In this document: in pieces, positions 8,403-63,114 of the stretch | Layout: the number at the start of each line of letters is the position of its first letter | Position numbering within the stretch: the first letter of the stretch is position 1 | NCBI GenBank assembly: GCA_007695285.1 | Contig: REEC01000117.1 | Span: 62,001 to 126,000 of the forward strand | Length of the DNA stretch: 64,000 nucleotides | Source: Spirochaetaceae bacterium | GTDB lineage: Bacteria; Spirochaetota; Spirochaetia; DSM-27196; PXBQ01 | Direction: 5' to 3' | Translations under genes and position numbers: made by a program | Notes under the pieces: generated by a model | The model's database searches: none | What the model saw: only the letters and a program-made list of their open reading frames with translations | What the model was told of the DNA's origin: nothing

Positions 8403-10747
8403 ACGTTCTCCGGGATAGAGAGAATATCGCGCGGTTTGCTCCCGTTCTGCGGCCCGACGATCCCGACGCGCTCCATCTCTTCGACGAGACGCGCCGCGCG
8501 GTTGTACCCTATCTTAAGTCTGCGCTGCAGATACGAAGCGGACGCTTTTTTCGCCGTGACGACGATCTGAATCGCCTTTTCCATCAGCGGATCTTCAAGC
8601 TCTTCCTGGATGTAGGCTTCATCGTCGTCTTCTATAAAAATCTCGTCGTCAATGTACTCGGGCTCGCCGAGCGTTTTGACGTGCTCGACGACGCGTTCGA
8701 CCTCGTCCTCTGAGAGAAACGCTCCCTGAATCCGGAACGGGAACGGGTCCCACGCCGACGTGAACAGCATATCACCGCGTCCGAGCAGCTTCTCGGCGCC
8801 CATCGTGTCGAGGATGATCCGTGAGTCGACTTTGCTCGCGACCATGAACGCGATCCTCGACGGGATGTTCGCTTTGATCAAACCCGTGATCACGTCGGTC
8901 GAGGGACGTTGCGTCGCGAGAACGAGATGGATGCCGACCGCGCGCGACATCGCCGCGAGACGCGCTAACGTCGTCTCGAGCTCCTTGCCGCTCGTCGCCA
9001 TAAGGTCGGCGAACTCGTCGACAACCACGACGATGTACGGCAGCCGCTCCATCGCGAGGTTCTTCTTCTCGATCTTTAAGTTGAAAGACGTGATGTCACG
9101 GACCGCGAGCGCGTCGAGCAGCGTGTATCGGCGCTCCATTTCGTAGATGCAGTACTGGAGCGCCTGAAACGCGCGTTTTGGATCGGTGATCACCGGCGTC
9201 AGCAAGTGCGGAATGTCGTTGTAAAACTTGAGCTCGACGATTTTCGGATCGATCAGGATCATCTTCACTTCCTGAGGCGTCCGCCGGTACAGGATCGAAC
9301 AGATGATCGAGTTCACGCAAACCGATTTTCCCGAGCCGGTCGCACCGGCAATCAACAGATGTGGCGTTTTCGTGAGATCGATTATCTGCGCGTCGCCCGG
9401 AATATCCTTGCCGAGAGCGATCGGGATGTTGATCTGGTCGCGCTGGAACGTCGGATCGCCGACGAGTTCGCCGAACGACACGATGTTCCGTCTCTTGTTC
9501 GGTATTTCGATTCCAACCGCGTGTTTTCCGGGAATCGGCGCGACGATACGAACGCTCGACGCGGCCATCCTGAGCGCGATGTTGTCCGACAAGTTCGTGA
9601 TCCGCGCGAGTTTGACTCCCGGCGCCGGCAGGATCTCGAACATCGTGATCACGGGCCCCTTCCGGATTCCGGTAACCTCGGCCTGAATCTGAAACTCCTC
9701 GAGCGTCACGCGCAGGACTTCCGCGGCGGTTCGTGTGTCGTCATCGATCACCCAGTACTGACCGTCGGGGTACTCGTCGAGCAATCCATCGATCGGCACC
9801 GTGTACTTCTTCGCGCTTTTTCGGCCCGGCCTTTTGGCCGGCGGAGGAGCTATCGGCACGTCGTCGTCGATGCGATTCGCGTCGACCATCTCGGGTATTT
9901 CGAGCTCGTCGTCTACGTCGTCGTACCCGTCGTCTTCGTCTTCGTCTTCGAGCTGATCGTCCGCTTCGAGTTCAACCGCATAGTCGTAGTCCTCCTCGTC
10001 GTGATCGATGGGGACAAGTTCGATCGGCTCATCGTCAAACGCCGCAGGGTCATCGGTCAGGCGTCCGTCGGTGAAAAACACGCGATACTCGTCGTCCGCC
10101 TCGTCCGGGTCGTCATGCTCGTCGGTGGCGTCGCGCTTCTCGGCGGGGGACTCGAGCCACGCGTAATCGAACTCGGGTCCGGATTCCGGTGCAGGAAGCG
10201 ATAGCGGTGTCGCGTCGAGGGGATCGGACTCGAGCTCGTCAAGGTCTTCCTCATTGCGATCGGATCGCGATTCATCCGCGGTGATCCCGATCACGACGTA
10301 TACGATCGCAATCAGCTCAAGCGCGAGAGCCAAAACGAGCAGGAAGGCTCCACCACGCGCAGAGAAACTCGTGATGAAGAAACTCGTGATCGGCGATTGA
10401 GCGGCGGCCGGGTCGAACAGAATCCGAAGAAGAATTCCCAGCGTGAACAGCGGGAACACCGAGAGATTCGCCGCGACAATCGCGCCCGGAAGCCGATGCG
10501 GCATAAATGTAAGAGCCGCGAGTACCCCGAGATACGTCGGGAGCAGGAAAGCCGCACCGTGGAAACTTGCAAAGAGAAACCGGCCCGGCAAAGCGAGAAG
10601 AAGGATCACCGACGAACTCGGCACCGCGCCGAACCGAATATGAGCGCCAATGGACGCTGCCGTGACGATAGCCGCCGCGACCAGGACCCCACCAAGAATG
10701 TGGTGCGACGTCTCTCGATTTACTGGGTAGTACCGATCATGCTGCAC
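8399..10747 (-). CDS. ftsK: DNA translocase FtsK/SpoIIIE
   Basis: This 782-aa septal DNA pump resolves chromosomes at division. Several N-terminal membrane segments (about residues 15-160) are followed by a strongly acidic linker rich in D and E (about 170-290). The motor comes next, with Walker A GATGSGKS near residue 466 and Walker B VVVVDEFADL near 574. The C-terminal gamma winged helix (KKASASYLQRRLKIGYNRAA) reads KOPS-like sites. The start is GTG 10747, with AGGAG 8 nt upstream. It is last in a three-gene minus-strand run behind the lytic transglycosylase. Confidence 0.93.
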   Translation of the reverse strand: MQHDRYYPVNRETSHHILGGVLVAAAIVTAASIGAHIRFGAVPSSSVILLLALPGRFLFASFHGAAFLLPTYLGVLAALTFMPHRLPGAIVAANLSVFPLFTLGILLRILFDPAAAQSPITSFFITSFSARGGAFLLVLALALELIAIVYVVIGITADESRSDRNEEDLDELESDPLDATPLSLPAPESGPEFDYAWLESPAEKRDATDEHDDPDEADDEYRVFFTDGRLTDDPAAFDDEPIELVPIDHDEEDYDYAVELEADDQLEDEDEDDGYDDVDDELEIPEMVDANRIDDDVPIAPPPAKRPGRKSAKKYTVPIDGLLDEYPDGQYWVIDDDTRTAAEVLRVTLEEFQIQAEVTGIRKGPVITMFEILPAPGVKLARITNLSDNIALRMAASSVRIVAPIPGKHAVGIEIPNKRRNIVSFGELVGDPTFQRDQINIPIALGKDIPGDAQIIDLTKTPHLLIAGATGSGKSVCVNSIICSILYRRTPQEVKMILIDPKIVELKFYNDIPHLLTPVITDPKRAFQALQYCIYEMERRYTLLDALAVRDITSFNLKIEKKNLAMERLPYIVVVVDEFADLMATSGKELETTLARLAAMSRAVGIHLVLATQRPSTDVITGLIKANIPSRIAFMVASKVDSRIILDTMGAEKLLGRGDMLFTSAWDPFPFRIQGAFLSEDEVERVVEHVKTLGEPEYIDDEIFIEDDDEAYIQEELEDPLMEKAIQIVVTAKKASASYLQRRLKIGYNRAARLVEEMERVGIVGPQNGSKPRDILSIPENV

Positions 10748-32270: not shown

Positions 32271-32307
32271 CGCCGCCGGAGAAGTCCGGCGGCGTTTTTT
32301 TTTTTTT
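32271..32307 (+). terminator. Rho-independent terminator of glnA
   Basis: A perfect 10-bp stem (CGCCGCCGGA/TCCGGCGGCG) with a GAAG loop is followed by 13 T residues. The insertion sequence begins 13 nt further on. Confidence 0.92.
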
Positions 32308-32460: not shown

Positions 32461-33660
32461 ATGGCACGCACGCACTCTCTTCTCCCGTCGCTCCCGATCG
32501 GCAGCAGCTCCGATGCCGAGAACACGCCGTTTCACCCCCCGTTCTGCCCGAACCCCTGCTGCCTGTACCACCACGCGCCGCCGCCGGAGGACGAGCTGTG
32601 GTGGCGCGATCACGGACGGTATCGCACCAAAATAGCCGGGCGGATCCGGCGCCTTCGCTGCCGCCGCTGCGGGAGAACCTTCTCCGAGCGGACTTTCTCC
32701 ACCGCGTACTACATTAAAGTGCAGATCAACCTCGTCGCCGCTCTTCTGTGTCTCGTCGGCGGGATGAGCCTGCGCGCGATCGCGCGCGGGCTCGGCTGCT
32801 CGATGGGAAGCCTCTCCAACCGCTTCGCTCGTATGGGCCGGCAGGCGGCGGCGATGCACGCGGAGCTCGCCGCCACGGTGAGTCTCGCCGAGGACCTGTG
32901 CGCCGATGGGTTTGTCGACTTCACCGTCAGCCAGTACTTTCCCGACGTCACCACGGTCCTCGTCGGCTCGCGCTCTCAGATGATCTACTCCCTCGATCAC
33001 GGCTTCCTGCGCCGACGCGGGAGAATGACCGCTCGCCAAAGGCGGCGCAGGGCGAGACTCGAGAGGCTTTTCCGCGCAGCGCGCTCGGCGGAGAAAAACA
33101 CCTTCGCGTGCGCGCTCGCCGAGACTCTCGAGCGAAACTGGAACCCCGCCCGCCCGTTAATCCTTGATACCGACAAGAACCCCCTCTACCCGCGGGCTCT
33201 TGCGGCTCTCGCGAAGGAGATCCCTGCGATCGGCGACCCAAAGAGATTCCACCACCGGGTGACCTCCGGTGAGGCACCACGTACGCACGCGAACCATCTG
33301 TTCCCGGTGAACTACATCGACCGGCAGATCAGGCTGAACCTTGCCGCGCACCGCAGGCAGACGGTGTGTTTCGCTCGCAACACCGCGGCGACGCTCGACC
33401 GGACGGTGTTGCTCATGTGTTACCACAACTACAACAAAGCTCACCGCATCGTCGACACCCGCCCGACTCCTTCGGCTCACGCGGTGGTCGCCGGAGTCGA
33501 CGAGCAGGCGATCATCGGGTGGTGGCGGAGGTTTTTCCTCTCGCGGACGTTCTTCACCCACACCTCGCTCAGCGGCTTCCTGCGTTCGGTGTGGCTGCGG
33601 ACCAACGAGACGCCGCTGTCGAAGGCGCCGGACTACCTGCCGAAGTATGCTTTCGCGTGA
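32461..33660 (+). CDS. IS transposase with N-terminal zinc ribbon
   Basis: This 399-aa protein starts at ATG 32461 with GAGGAGG upstream. An N-terminal Cys-rich DNA-binding region (CPNPCC... and CRRCGRTFSERT) is followed by a helix-turn-helix-like stretch (MSLRAIARGLGCSMGSLSNRFARMG). A catalytic RNase H-like core has candidate acidic residues in DGFVDF and LILDTDKN. The C-terminal YIDRQIRLNLAAHRRQTVCFARN segment resembles the E-R-x-x-R-x-x-x-R..R-x-T-x-x-F-S pattern of IS1-type transposases. Family assignment is tentative, but the inverted repeats around it make transposase identity secure. It is intact, with no frameshift. Confidence 0.82.
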   Translation: MARTHSLLPSLPIGSSSDAENTPFHPPFCPNPCCLYHHAPPPEDELWWRDHGRYRTKIAGRIRRLRCRRCGRTFSERTFSTAYYIKVQINLVAALLCLVGGMSLRAIARGLGCSMGSLSNRFARMGRQAAAMHAELAATVSLAEDLCADGFVDFTVSQYFPDVTTVLVGSRSQMIYSLDHGFLRRRGRMTARQRRRRARLERLFRAARSAEKNTFACALAETLERNWNPARPLILDTDKNPLYPRALAALAKEIPAIGDPKRFHHRVTSGEAPRTHANHLFPVNYIDRQIRLNLAAHRRQTVCFARNTAATLDRTVLLMCYHNYNKAHRIVDTRPTPSAHAVVAGVDEQAIIGWWRRFFLSRTFFTHTSLSGFLRSVWLRTNETPLSKAPDYLPKYAFA

Positions 33661-33845: not shown

Positions 33846-34922
33846 GTGACACCAAAACAGAACCCGCTCGTCAAGCCGATAATCGCATCTCTCTCCGCAA
33901 TGGTATTCGCGCTTGCCTTTTCCGCGTGCGGAACCACGCCTCCCGCGCCCGACGACCAAACCGATCAGCAGCTCGCGGTACTCGAAGCCGAGAACGCGGC
34001 GCTCAAGGCCCAACTCGCGCGGACTCGTGAGACAGCACGCTCGGAGATCGAGCGTGTGACCGCCGAGCGCGAAACTCTCGCGCGTGAACTTCGCGCGCTC
34101 CAAACCGAGCTTCAAACCGTATCGAGTGACCACGAATCCGCCCGCGCACGGATAGCGCGGCTCGAGCGCGAGAACGCCGCGTTACAGGAGCTCATCGACG
34201 AACTCCGCCTCGTCATTCTGCTTCTGAGAGACATGAATCGCACGATCGAGCCACAACCCGACACCACCGAACCGCCCGAAGGCGCCGCGTTACCCGACAC
34301 TGTTGAGCCCGACGCGATAGAGACGCCCGACGTCACCGACTCGGACCCGGCGTCGCGCGATCCCGCGGAGTTCTATACCCGGGGCAAGCTTCTGCCGCCA
34401 AGGCTCGAGAGCTCACCACGATCTCCGATAGCGGGGATCGGTCTCGTCTCGGTACGCGATCCGGCGACGGACACGTTTCGGTACTACTCCGCGCGAGTCA
34501 ACCCGGAATCTGAGAATGCCTTGTACTTCGTGATCGAACAGAGTTCCCGCGGCGAGGCAACGCTCCGCGCGCAGATCCGGCGGACTCACGAAGCCGGTCC
34601 TGCGGTAACCGAGGCTATCGCGCTCCGTGATGCCGGCGGCGTTGTGCCGCTTCCGCTTATCGCCGCGACGCGCGTGACCGACGGCCGCCGGTGGGTCGAG
34701 ACGATCTCGTCGGCTCTCGACGAGTTCGAGAGAGTTGTTCACGCAATCGAAGACGAGAGCGCCGAGATGGTGTTCCACACGACGAGCCGCGACGGAACCG
34801 AGACCACTACGCGGCGGATCACGGCCCGTGAGCGCGAGGCGGCGATCACGGTGATCACCGCGTTCATCGAACTTGGAGGCCAGCTCGCTGCTATCCCGGC
34901 GGCAAGAACGCCGCGGGAATAG
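33846..34922 (+). CDS. Coiled-coil lipoprotein of unknown function
   Basis: This 358-aa lipoprotein starts at GTG 33846, with signal ending LAFSAC (cysteine near residue 28). A coiled coil (about residues 40-125, heptads such as LEAENAALKAQLART) is followed by a P/E/D-rich linker (about 135-175). A C-terminal beta-rich domain of about 170 aa follows, beginning near RSPIAGIGLVSVRDP. It probably spans from the membrane into the periplasm. The last 14 codons and the stop lie in the first unit of the palindromic tandem repeat, so the C-terminus may have been extended or replaced by it. The start is less certain: ATG 33900 is in frame but would leave a short signal. Confidence 0.68.
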   Translation: MTPKQNPLVKPIIASLSAMVFALAFSACGTTPPAPDDQTDQQLAVLEAENAALKAQLARTRETARSEIERVTAERETLARELRALQTELQTVSSDHESARARIARLERENAALQELIDELRLVILLLRDMNRTIEPQPDTTEPPEGAALPDTVEPDAIETPDVTDSDPASRDPAEFYTRGKLLPPRLESSPRSPIAGIGLVSVRDPATDTFRYYSARVNPESENALYFVIEQSSRGEATLRAQIRRTHEAGPAVTEAIALRDAGGVVPLPLIAATRVTDGRRWVETISSALDEFERVVHAIEDESAEMVFHTTSRDGTETTTRRITAREREAAITVITAFIELGGQLAAIPAARTPRE

Positions 34923-35043
34923 CAGCTGTGGAGGCCAAGTCGCGACTATCTCCGCGGCAAAAACGCCGCGCAGATAGCCGCTGTGGGTGGCCGGCTCGCA
35001 GTTATCCCCGCGGCTCGGTAGCCGCGGTGATAACCGCTGTGGG
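34878..35043. repeat. Three tandem palindromic repeat units of about 55 bp
   Basis: Units begin at GGCC 34878, 34933 and 34989 and end near CTGTGG. Each contains a long hairpin: GCTGCTAT..ATAGCAGC (34887-34926), CTATCT..GCGGC/GCCGC..AGATAG (34946-34977), and GTTATC..CCGCGGCT/AGCCGCGG..GATAAC (35001-35034). Bases differ between copies in both arms so that pairing is kept. Unit one overlaps the end of the upstream lipoprotein gene. No U-tract follows any stem. Confidence 0.8.
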
Positions 35044-35121
35044 AGGGGGCGACTCGCCGGTGAGTTCGCGGCGCAGGAGCGGGTGCCGGCGGCGCTCCGC
35101 GGCGCCGCTTGGCGGGGACGC
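35044..35121. other. GC-rich spacer after the palindromic repeats
   Basis: 78 bp between the repeats and the clpC stop. It contains GGAGCG/CGCTCC and other G+C-rich inverted segments but no open gene and no T-run. It may be a decayed further repeat unit or part of the clpC transcript end. Confidence 0.3.
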
Positions 35122-37641
35122 TTAGTTCTTGAGGTCTTCGCCGGCTCCGGCGCCGACCGCTACGCGGCTTTCTTTCTTTTGCGGTTTGTTCCGGAACGTC
35201 AACTTGCCGCCTTTCTCGCTGAGAATGATATGACTTCCTTCGCCGAAACGACCTTTGAGAATCAGCATCGAGAGGGGGTCCTCGATCTCTTTCTGAATCG
35301 TGCGACGAAGAGGACGCGCGCCGAACTTGGGATCGTACCCGGTGTCGATGATGTAGCGTTTTGCGCGGGTTGAGACCTCGAGGATGATCTCTTTCTCGGC
35401 GAGCCGCGTCTGAACGTCGGCGAGCAGGATATTGAGTATCCGCGAGATCTCGTCCTGAACGAGCGCGTGGAACACCACAATCTCGTCGGCGCGGTTGATG
35501 AACTCCGGCCGGAACAGCCGTCGCAGCTCATTCAAGGCTGAGCTCTTGATGTCACGATACTCCATGAGGTTCTCGTTCGGCTGGAATCCGACCATCGATT
35601 CGCGCGTGATCTCGCGCGCTCCGGCGTTGCTCGTCATGATGATAACGGTGTTCCGGAAGCTCACGGTGTGGCCGAGGTTGTCCTGGAGCTCACCTTCTTC
35701 AAGAACTTGCAGCAAGATGTTGAACACGTCGGGGTGAGCCTTCTCGATCTCGTCGAGCAGCACGACCGAGTACGGGCGACGACGGATCTTCTCGGTCAAG
35801 AGGCCACCTTCGTCGTACCCGATGTATCCCGGGGGCGCACCGACAAGACGCGACACGTTGTGCTTCTCCATGAAGTCGGACATGTCGATTCGAACAAGAG
35901 CGTCGTCGCTGCCGAACAGGAACTCCGCGAGCGTCTTTGCGAGAAGCGTCTTCCCGACCCCGGTCGGACCCATGAAGATAAACGAACCCATCGGCCGTCC
36001 GGGCGCGCTCAACCCGGTCCGCGAACGCCTGATCGCCGAAGCGACCGCGGCGATCGCATCGTCCTGGCCGATGACCTTCTTGTGCAACTCCTCTTCGACC
36101 CGCAGAAGCTTCTCGGACTCGCTCTGCGCGATTCGAGACAGAGGTATACCGGTAATCTCAGAGAGCACGTACTGGATGTCGTCCGCGTCGACGATGTTGT
36201 GCTCGGTTTTCAGCGTCACCTTCCACTCGGTTCGTATCGACTCGACACGCGCCTTGACGCGGCGAACCTCGTCGCGAATAGCCGCGGCGCGTTCGTAGTT
36301 CTGCGAGTTCACGAGAGAAATTTTCTCGGCGTTCAGTTTCTCTATCTCGTGTTCGAGTTCGGTGAGCTCGGTTGGACGCACGCTGTTGTGGATGCGTTTG
36401 CGCGATCCTGCCTCATCGATCAGATCGATCGCCTTGTCCGGCAGAAATCTTTCAGTGATGTACCGGCGAGACAGAACCGCCGACACCTCGATCGCGCCGG
36501 GCGTGTACGAAACGCTGTGATGGTCTTCGTACCGCGTCTTGATGCCTTTGAGAATCTCGATCGTCTCTTCGACCGTCGGCTCCTTTACGTAGATCGTCTG
36601 GAACCGGCGCTCGAGCGCGGCGTCTTTCTCGATGTACTTCTTGTACTCGTTCAGCGTCGTCGCGCCGATGCACTGAATCTCACCGCGCGACAGAGCGGGT
36701 TTGAGCATGTTTGACGCGTCGATTGCACCTTCGGCGCCGCCCGCGCCGATAATCGTGTGCAGCTCGTCGATGAAAAGAACGATATTTCCGGCGGTGATGA
36801 TCTCTTTCATCACGCGTTTGAGCCGTTCCTCGAACTCACCACGGTACTTCGTTCCGGCGATTAACGACGCGAGATCGAGCGTCATCACACGGCGGCCGAT
36901 CAGGACCTCGGGAGCCGTGCCGTCGACGATCCTCTGAGCGAGTCCTTCGACGATCGCGGTCTTTCCGACGCCGGGTTCTCCGATCAATACCGGGTTGTTT
37001 TTTGTGCGGCGCGCGAGAATCTGGATTACGCGTTCGATCTCGCGCTCGCGCCCGACAACCGGGTCGAGTTTGTTCTCTTGCGCGTACACGGTCAAATCGC
37101 GTGAAAACTCGTCGAGCGTCGGCGTGGTCTTCTTCTGCGTACCCGCAACGGGTTTTCTCTTTTGGGTCTGCCCGACACGCGCACCACCCGCTGAGACCGG
37201 GCCGCTTCCGCTGAGTTCGGCTATGATCTCTCGCAGCGTCTCAACCGTGATATTGAACCGCCCCAAATACTTCGCGGTCTCGCCGGCTTGTTCCCGCGCG
37301 CACGCGAGCAGCAAATGCTCGGTCCCGATGTAGTCGTGCCCGAGGGTTTTCGCTTCTTCGGCCGAGTCCTCGAGTACCTGTTTCCCACGCGCCGACGGGG
37401 GAACGTCGCCCAGGATGAAACCGGTACGCTTGCGTGGAACGGCCTTTTCGATCTCTGCGAGCATTTCCGAAGCATCGATCAGCGCTTTCTCCAACGCCTT
37501 GAACCCGAGCCCTCCGCCTTCCTTGAGCAACGCGAGAACTATATGCTCGGGCAGTAACTGATCCGAGTGAAACCGTTTGGCTTCGTCCTGGGCCAAAATC
37601 GTAAGGACTTTCTGAGCCCGCTGTGTCAAACCTTTAAACAT
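35122..37641 (-). CDS. clpC: ATP-dependent unfoldase ClpC
   Basis: This 839-aa AAA+ chaperone of the ClpC type feeds ClpP. Two Clp-N repeats lie in residues 1-145. The first ATPase has Walker A GEPGVGKT at 221-228. A UVR-containing middle segment ([19 protein letters not shown]) is followed by the second ATPase with GPTGVGKT. In McsAB-bearing bacteria the N-domain binds phospho-arginine on substrates. The start ATG has GGAGG upstream. It is last in the mcsA-mcsB-clpC operon; clpP is not in this window. Confidence 0.95.
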
Positions 37642-61488: not shown

Positions 61489-63114
61489 TTACTCTGCGGG
61501 GCCGCGTAGAAAGTCCCCACCCGCAAGCAAAATGGGATCCGTAAACTGCGCGTGCCCGTGGATCAAACGGCACGCGCGCGCGATCGCGCGCGGTGAGGTG
61601 AGATTTGCATCGGAAATCGATAACAACGCCGAATCGACACCGGCGGCTCGCTTGGTAAGCAGACGAGCCACCAGAGAGCGCTTCACGCTTGGACCGAACT
61701 TAACACGCACCTTTTTTTTGCCGATCAGATCGCGCGCGTACTCGATCGCGTCGTGCAACCCGCCGAGTTCGTCGACAAGACCGACCGAAAGTGCGTCGTT
61801 CCCGAGCCAGACGCGTCCTTCGCCGAGTTTGTCGATCTGTTCAGGGGTCTTTCCGCGGAACTCGGCGACACGCGAGAGAAACTCCCGGTACAGACCGTCG
61901 ACGACTCGATCCGTTTCGGCGATTTCCTCGGGCCGCATCGCGCGCAGCGCCGAGCCGAAGTCGGCGTACTCACCGTGTTTGACCGTGTCGGTCGTGATCC
62001 CGTGTCGCGCGAGCAGTTTCGCGATGTTCATGAACAGCGTGACCACGCCGATCGAACCCGTGATACTCGTCGGAAGTGCAAAAAGTCTCCGGCCCGTCAT
62101 CGCGATCCAGTACCCGCCGCTGCCCGCGACCGGTCCCATCGAAACGACGACCGGCTTCTTCTCCGCGAGCCGCGACAGCTCGTTCACGATGTTCTCGCTC
62201 GCGACGGCCGATCCACCGCCCGAGTTGATCCGAAACACGACGGCCTTGGCGCGCTTGTCGTCGCGCACCGCGCGGATCGCCGCGGTGAACGAGCGGTCGC
62301 CGATCGCTTGTCCGAGAAGCGGGTCGCGCCGATTCTCGCCGTCGACGACGGCACCCTCGAAAACGAGCACGCGGAGACGGGCACCCTTCCCATAGAAACC
62401 TCTCACCTTTTTGAGCGGCGTCTCTTTCCACCGATCGGTCTTCCAACCGGCGACTATACCGTCGACCGTCGCGAGGACGTCGACGAGAGCTTCGGCCTCG
62501 GCCTCTTTGGCGAGAACCACCCTGCCGGCGATCATCTGCTCGATCTGCGTCGCGGTGAGAACGCCGGACTCGACGACCGACTGCTTCATCGCGTCGACGA
62601 CACCGGCGAGCAGCGCGTCGAGCTGCTCGCGGTTGTACTCGTCGTACCGGTCGGTCCGGAACGGGTCGCGCGCGCTCTTGTACCGTCCGCGTCTGATAAC
62701 CTCGACGTCGATATCGAGCTTCTCGAGAAGCTTACGGAAAAACATCCCCGTGCGTGCAATGCCGAGAAAGGACACGGTTCCGAGCGGATGAAGAACTCGA
62801 CGCGTGCACGCCGAGGCGAGATACCACTCGGGCGCACCGTACTCGGGCGCGTAAAACACGACTTCCTTGCCGGCCGCGACGATTCGGAGCAAACCGTCCC
62901 TGATCTCGTGAAGCGCGCCGAACGCGGGCGCCGAAAACCGGTCGCCCCGTGCGACGAGAACACGTCGAATCGACCGCGTCGATGCGATCCGCTCGACCCG
63001 CTCAAGGTAGTGATCGAGCCGGAATGACTTGTCGAGCGAGACACCGAGCGGCCCTGTCGTTTGCGCCCCGATCTCCCGATACGTTCCGTTCAAATCGATC
63101 CGCGCGTAGCGCAT
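61489..63114 (-). CDS. sppA: Signal peptide peptidase SppA (protease IV type)
   Basis: This 541-aa serine/lysine protease digests cleaved signal peptides. It is a tandem SppA of the long (67-kDa) class. The catalytic Lys is in GRYKSARDPF near residue 145, and the catalytic Ser in VAGSGGYW near residue 329. ATG 63114 has GGGGAGG 5 nt upstream. Unlike E. coli SppA there is no clear N-terminal membrane helix, so it may be soluble or peripheral. The sensor kinase ends 38 nt before it. Confidence 0.88.
   Translation of the reverse strand: MRYARIDLNGTYREIGAQTTGPLGVSLDKSFRLDHYLERVERIASTRSIRRVLVARGDRFSAPAFGALHEIRDGLLRIVAAGKEVVFYAPEYGAPEWYLASACTRRVLHPLGTVSFLGIARTGMFFRKLLEKLDIDVEVIRRGRYKSARDPFRTDRYDEYNREQLDALLAGVVDAMKQSVVESGVLTATQIEQMIAGRVVLAKEAEAEALVDVLATVDGIVAGWKTDRWKETPLKKVRGFYGKGARLRVLVFEGAVVDGENRRDPLLGQAIGDRSFTAAIRAVRDDKRAKAVVFRINSGGGSAVASENIVNELSRLAEKKPVVVSMGPVAGSGGYWIAMTGRRLFALPTSITGSIGVVTLFMNIAKLLARHGITTDTVKHGEYADFGSALRAMRPEEIAETDRVVDGLYREFLSRVAEFRGKTPEQIDKLGEGRVWLGNDALSVGLVDELGGLHDAIEYARDLIGKKKVRVKFGPSVKRSLVARLLTKRAAGVDSALLSISDANLTSPRAIARACRLIHGHAQFTDPILLAGGDFLRGPAE

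Follow-up and report, generated by a model that had tools for sequence, protein, structure and literature searches.

The 3' ends of clpC and of a convergent lipoprotein-like gene are separated, in this Spirochaetaceae genome, by three long hairpins in tandem, and the question that the locus raises is whether these are a repeat family, a by-product of replication or an end for the transcripts that run into them. The window is the whole stretch of DNA analysed (64,000 nucleotides, positions 62,001 to 126,000 of contig REEC01000117.1), and the features concerned are the following.

33846-34922, plus strand: lipoprotein-like gene of 358 amino acids, its N-terminal half coiled-coil, convergent to clpC
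34881-34922, plus strand: part of unit 1 that reads as the lipoprotein's C-terminal extension with its TAG stop
34874-34928, no strand assigned: unit 1, with its stem-loop at 34887-34926; the 5' part and the stem encode the last residues and the stop of the lipoprotein
34929-34983, no strand assigned: unit 2, with its stem-loop at 34942-34981
34985-35039, no strand assigned: unit 3, with its stem-loop at 34998-35037
35040-35121, no strand assigned: GC-rich spacer, from the array to the clpC stop
35122-37641, minus strand: clpC, 839 amino acids, its 3' side toward the array, with mcsB and mcsA upstream

In the same window, positions 32461-33660 encode a 399-amino-acid zinc-ribbon and helix-turn-helix protein weakly similar to ISL3 and IS1 transposases (NCBIfam E 2e-6, below the cut-off; no Pfam match), with one paralogue, 40% identical, elsewhere in the genome (C84), and judging from sequence it is possibly an undescribed insertion-sequence transposase.

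A sequence-only reading had described three units of 55-56 bp, each forming a long hairpin, and this was confirmed: three tandem, diverged copies lie at 34874-35039, with starts spaced by 55 and 56, each containing a 17-pair stem and a loop of 4-6 nt, and gaps of 15 and 16 nt separate the hairpins (the stem was defined as alignment columns 10-26 pairing with columns 33-49, giving 51 stem cells over the three units). Against unit 1, identity is 80% for unit 2 and 73% for unit 3, and mean column identity across the three is 86% in a gap-free alignment of 51 columns; the cores (GCGGC/GCCGC and TAT/ATA) are invariant and the spacers GGCC and GCTG conserved. Units 1 and 2 compare better in direct than in inverted orientation and unit 3 equally well in either, while a fourth unit within the spacer at 35040-35121 was not significant (9-24% of shuffles equalled the best alignments). 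An assembly artefact is unlikely, as the units diverge by 20-27% and the array is internal to a 134-kb contig.

Every unit folds independently on both strands, with folding z values for units 1, 2 and 3 of -3.6, -3.2 and -2.3 on the plus strand and -4.7, -5.4 and -4.2 on the minus strand. Hairpins as strong as these numbered 19 in the 626 kb of the genome surveyed, three of them being the array units, and no other cluster of three neighbouring strong hairpins was present within those 626 kb. A separate palindrome in the same genome (L144:5110-5154), AACGCCTTTGGCGTTCCAGTCTTTGACCGAAACGCCAGAGGCGTT, is composed of two smaller palindromes and is unrelated to the array.

The earlier reading also held that both arms of the stem change together, listing GCTAT/ATAGC, CTATC/GATAG and TTATC/GATAA; the joint change stands and the list proved close to, if not identical with, what the alignment gives, namely doubly changed and still paired columns at 12/47 (G-C to T-A), 14/45 (C-G to T-A) and 19/40 (C-G to T-A), distributed one per unit. 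With the number of changes per arm held fixed and the arms changing independently, the simulated P for as many Watson-Crick cells, for these three sequences, was about 0.001 under uniform and 0.003 under transition-biased changes, and less strict column shuffles reached the score of the array in 17-19 of 500 cases. The observation is accurate and non-random, and selection on stem pairing, judged from three copies, is plausible.

The main rival explanation is that the array is a functionless palindromic minisatellite, in which a single hairpin arose, replication slippage copied it two more times, and template switching, not selection, maintains the pairing. Template switching has been documented creating and mending stems without selection (PMC8794818) and mutations in E. 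coli concentrate at quasipalindromes (PMC7202029), and the confinement of the array to one genomic locus and its lack in relatives (see below) would fit as well. A template switch, however, should also mend the positions next to those that it restores, whereas unrepaired mismatches lie close by the compensated pairs, and half of the leftover plus-strand mismatches become G-U on the clpC strand. Isolated compensated pairs of this kind do not look like mended tracts, though there are three copies only, and so we regard this explanation as doubtful while still a serious one. The invariant cores, conserved spacers and tandem dyads between convergent genes would also suit a group of DNA sites at which a dimeric or nucleoid protein (gyrase, an IHF-like protein or a repressor) acts on convergent supercoiling, but the base changes are compensated, which pairing accounts for better than duplex recognition does, and the lack of a second genomic copy would be unusual for a nucleoid protein site, making this explanation improbable.

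The two strands do not pair equally well. On the plus strand 45 of the 51 stem cells are Watson-Crick, while in minus-strand RNA, the sense of the clpC mRNA, 48 of 51 pair with G-U included, because three plus-strand A-C mismatches turn into G-U. The better minus-strand pairing suggests that it is the clpC transcript that matters, although the preference amounts to three wobble pairs out of three, for which the chance expectation is 1 in 8. The array lies where the 3' ends of the two genes meet across a gap of 199 bp, unit 3 beginning 82 nt past the clpC stop codon on the minus strand, and so the expectation that the units would be placed at gene ends, between convergent genes, was borne out.

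None of the three hairpins is followed by a T-run on either strand, as had been noted before, and the array thus has the GC-rich hairpin of an intrinsic terminator with the U-tract missing. The organism appears to use ordinary T-run terminators: in the same window a perfect 10-pair hairpin at 32271-32294, followed by ten T, lies just 3' of glnA, and therefore the array is a different kind of end. U-less GC-rich 3'-end hairpins have been ascribed to Rho termination downstream, after which exonucleases trim the RNA as far as a stabilising hairpin (PMC13289151), and for another spirochaete, Borrelia burgdorferi, there is an experimental map of Rho-dependent termination (PMC10319736). The present genome encodes rho, and pyrimidine-C dinucleotides past the array on the minus strand reach 0.205 against a window mean of 0.143, although this may just reflect antisense coding sequence.

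Is the unit found anywhere else? A genome search by blastn, covariance model and 3-mismatch pattern gave no second copy above chance, the array locus being the only match. In 60 relatives and a phylum sample of 393 genomes the matches were weak (per-genome E 0.003-0.5), at the level that chance predicts for so many genomes; the one exception, a blastn match of E 0.0009, lies within coding sequence of G005, and the weak matches inspected were mostly coding sequence without matching tandem stems. One of them, in L020, is the ordinary T-run terminator separating purE from a gene convergent to it. The unit was not found in viral contigs, phages or plasmids, it scores nowhere above the gathering threshold in Rfam 15, and no other strain bearing the array was found. 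The sequence-only reading had recognised no known repeat family, and there is no repeat family for the unit in the data searched; it had also proposed that uniqueness to this locus, together with loss of the covariation in related strains, would count against it, and the first of these holds, the unit being restricted to one locus.

These searches bear on the possibility that a mobile palindromic element (REP/BIME, REPIN, a Rickettsia-type palindromic element or a MITE) landed at the gene end. Such elements prefer convergent 3' ends, may supply stop codons and occur inside genes (PMC3733652), and the location of the array, downstream of convergent genes, is that of REP/BIME elements; yet the many dispersed copies that define REP/BIME are absent from the genome and the phylum sample, neither end of the palindrome carries a GTAG or CGTC tag (there is no CGTC, and GTAG occurs only within the loop of unit 3), and the Y1 (RAYT) transposase domain PF01797 (Y1_Tnp) is absent from the genome, in a search that gave matches in 5 of 14 control genomes. 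The mobile-element explanation is already mostly refuted and we consider it very improbable. Three other candidates were rejected: an integron attC site (paired GTTRRRY and RYYYAAC boxes are absent in 34861-35125), a type III antitoxin repeat (the open reading frame list has no toxin-like gene downstream on either strand) and a replication terminus or skew switch (the sign of the GC skew is constant throughout the window).

How the array arose may be read from the lipoprotein gene and its relatives. Its stop, TAG at 34920-34922, falls within the 3' arm of unit 1, which agrees with the earlier claim that this unit supplies the stop and last codons, and about 13 C-terminal residues, QLAAIPAARTPRE, extend through unit 1 beyond the end of related proteins. 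The repeat starts in the Leu-Gly-Gly codons of the lipoprotein, and therefore the duplicated segment included the gene end. Among the clpC loci compared, which come from Spirochaetales genomes, nine relatives (L030, L031, L033, L035, L036, L037, L039, L044 and L078) had an ortholog-like lipoprotein, alike in its C-terminal half, facing clpC; sequence similarity reaches significance for L030 (E 1e-7) but is weak for L031, and kinship for the other seven rests on position and multiple alignment. The lipoproteins of the relatives end within a few residues of a conserved C-terminal motif, before the hairpin position, and their gaps to clpC are 0-107 bp as against 199 bp here, suggesting that a hairpin was inserted or grew at the old stop and then underwent two tandem duplications. 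From sequence, unit 1 thus appears to have taken over from the ancestral stop and lengthened the gene by about 13 codons.

Downstream of clpC in the relatives there was no match to the array, which is therefore dispensable for clpC expression in general, and the single U-less hairpins found there score about as composition predicts. In the nearest and sole same-genus genome, T3Sed10_257, a clpC fragment is 99% identical and the contig ends inside clpC. At the clpC end of L078 (about 8539-8562) the convergent lipoprotein gene closes with codons that themselves fold into a U-less hairpin of 10 pairs, possibly a simpler form of the same arrangement.

The explanation that we favour, by a little over an even chance, is a hairpin array, specific to the lineage and enlarged by tandem duplication, where two convergent genes meet, acting as a U-less 3'-end barrier or terminator, chiefly for the mRNA of clpC. 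One long GC-rich hairpin would have been duplicated in tandem, the unit taking in the final bases of the lipoprotein gene (TGGAGGCC), its hairpin having taken the place of the ancestral stop codon. RNA polymerase leaving clpC would then transcribe three strong U-less minus-strand hairpins, with termination, probably Rho-dependent, at or past them; the hairpins would block 3'-to-5' exonucleases and so give the clpC mRNA a defined, stable 3' end, and the array would curb antisense RNA entering the lipoprotein gene. The lipoprotein mRNA may be served likewise by units 2 and 3, while unit 1 on the plus strand would be hindered in folding by ribosomes terminating at the overlapping stop, which lies inside its stem. 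The fuller proposal, that a locus-specific module, selected for pairing in the clpC strand, sets the 3' end or stability of the mcsA-mcsB-clpC mRNA and arose by repeated gene-end duplication that captured the opposite stop, we hold to be unlikely in its entirety.

The array reveals no new repeat family. If functional, it would represent a clean in-place duplication of a U-less transcript-end barrier, in which paralogous hairpins diverge in a compensatory manner and rewrite the end of a neighbouring protein; its three natural variants would be suited to testing the effect of U-less hairpins on RNA and bear on whether selection or template switching keeps the pairing.

Among known systems, bidirectional intrinsic terminators also place a hairpin between convergent genes, but the array has no T-run on either side in a genome that has T-run terminators elsewhere. 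The palindromic elements of Rickettsia and Wolbachia likewise contribute codons to proteins; the array differs in being undispersed and in extending a C-terminal end only. Hairpin clusters without poly-U, proposed to be terminators (Gupta and Pal 2021, PMC8355165), similarly have adjacent hairpins shortly past the stop codon, but theirs have stems of 2-10 bp with spacers under 15 nt, and the array, with 17 pairs, 15-16 nt and homologous tandem copies, falls outside that definition. REP/BIME elements, which are mRNA 3'-end barriers, share with it U-less GC-rich palindromes that sit at convergent gene ends, are likely transcribed and are able to supply stops, and differ in that the array occupies a single locus, has longer units and carries neither transposase nor diagnostic tag. 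By the definitions tested it is a member of neither of these last two classes, and on this comparison it is best described as resembling a REP-type 3' barrier or a hairpin-cluster terminator in its working, most likely an ordinary transcript-end barrier with a single-locus history.
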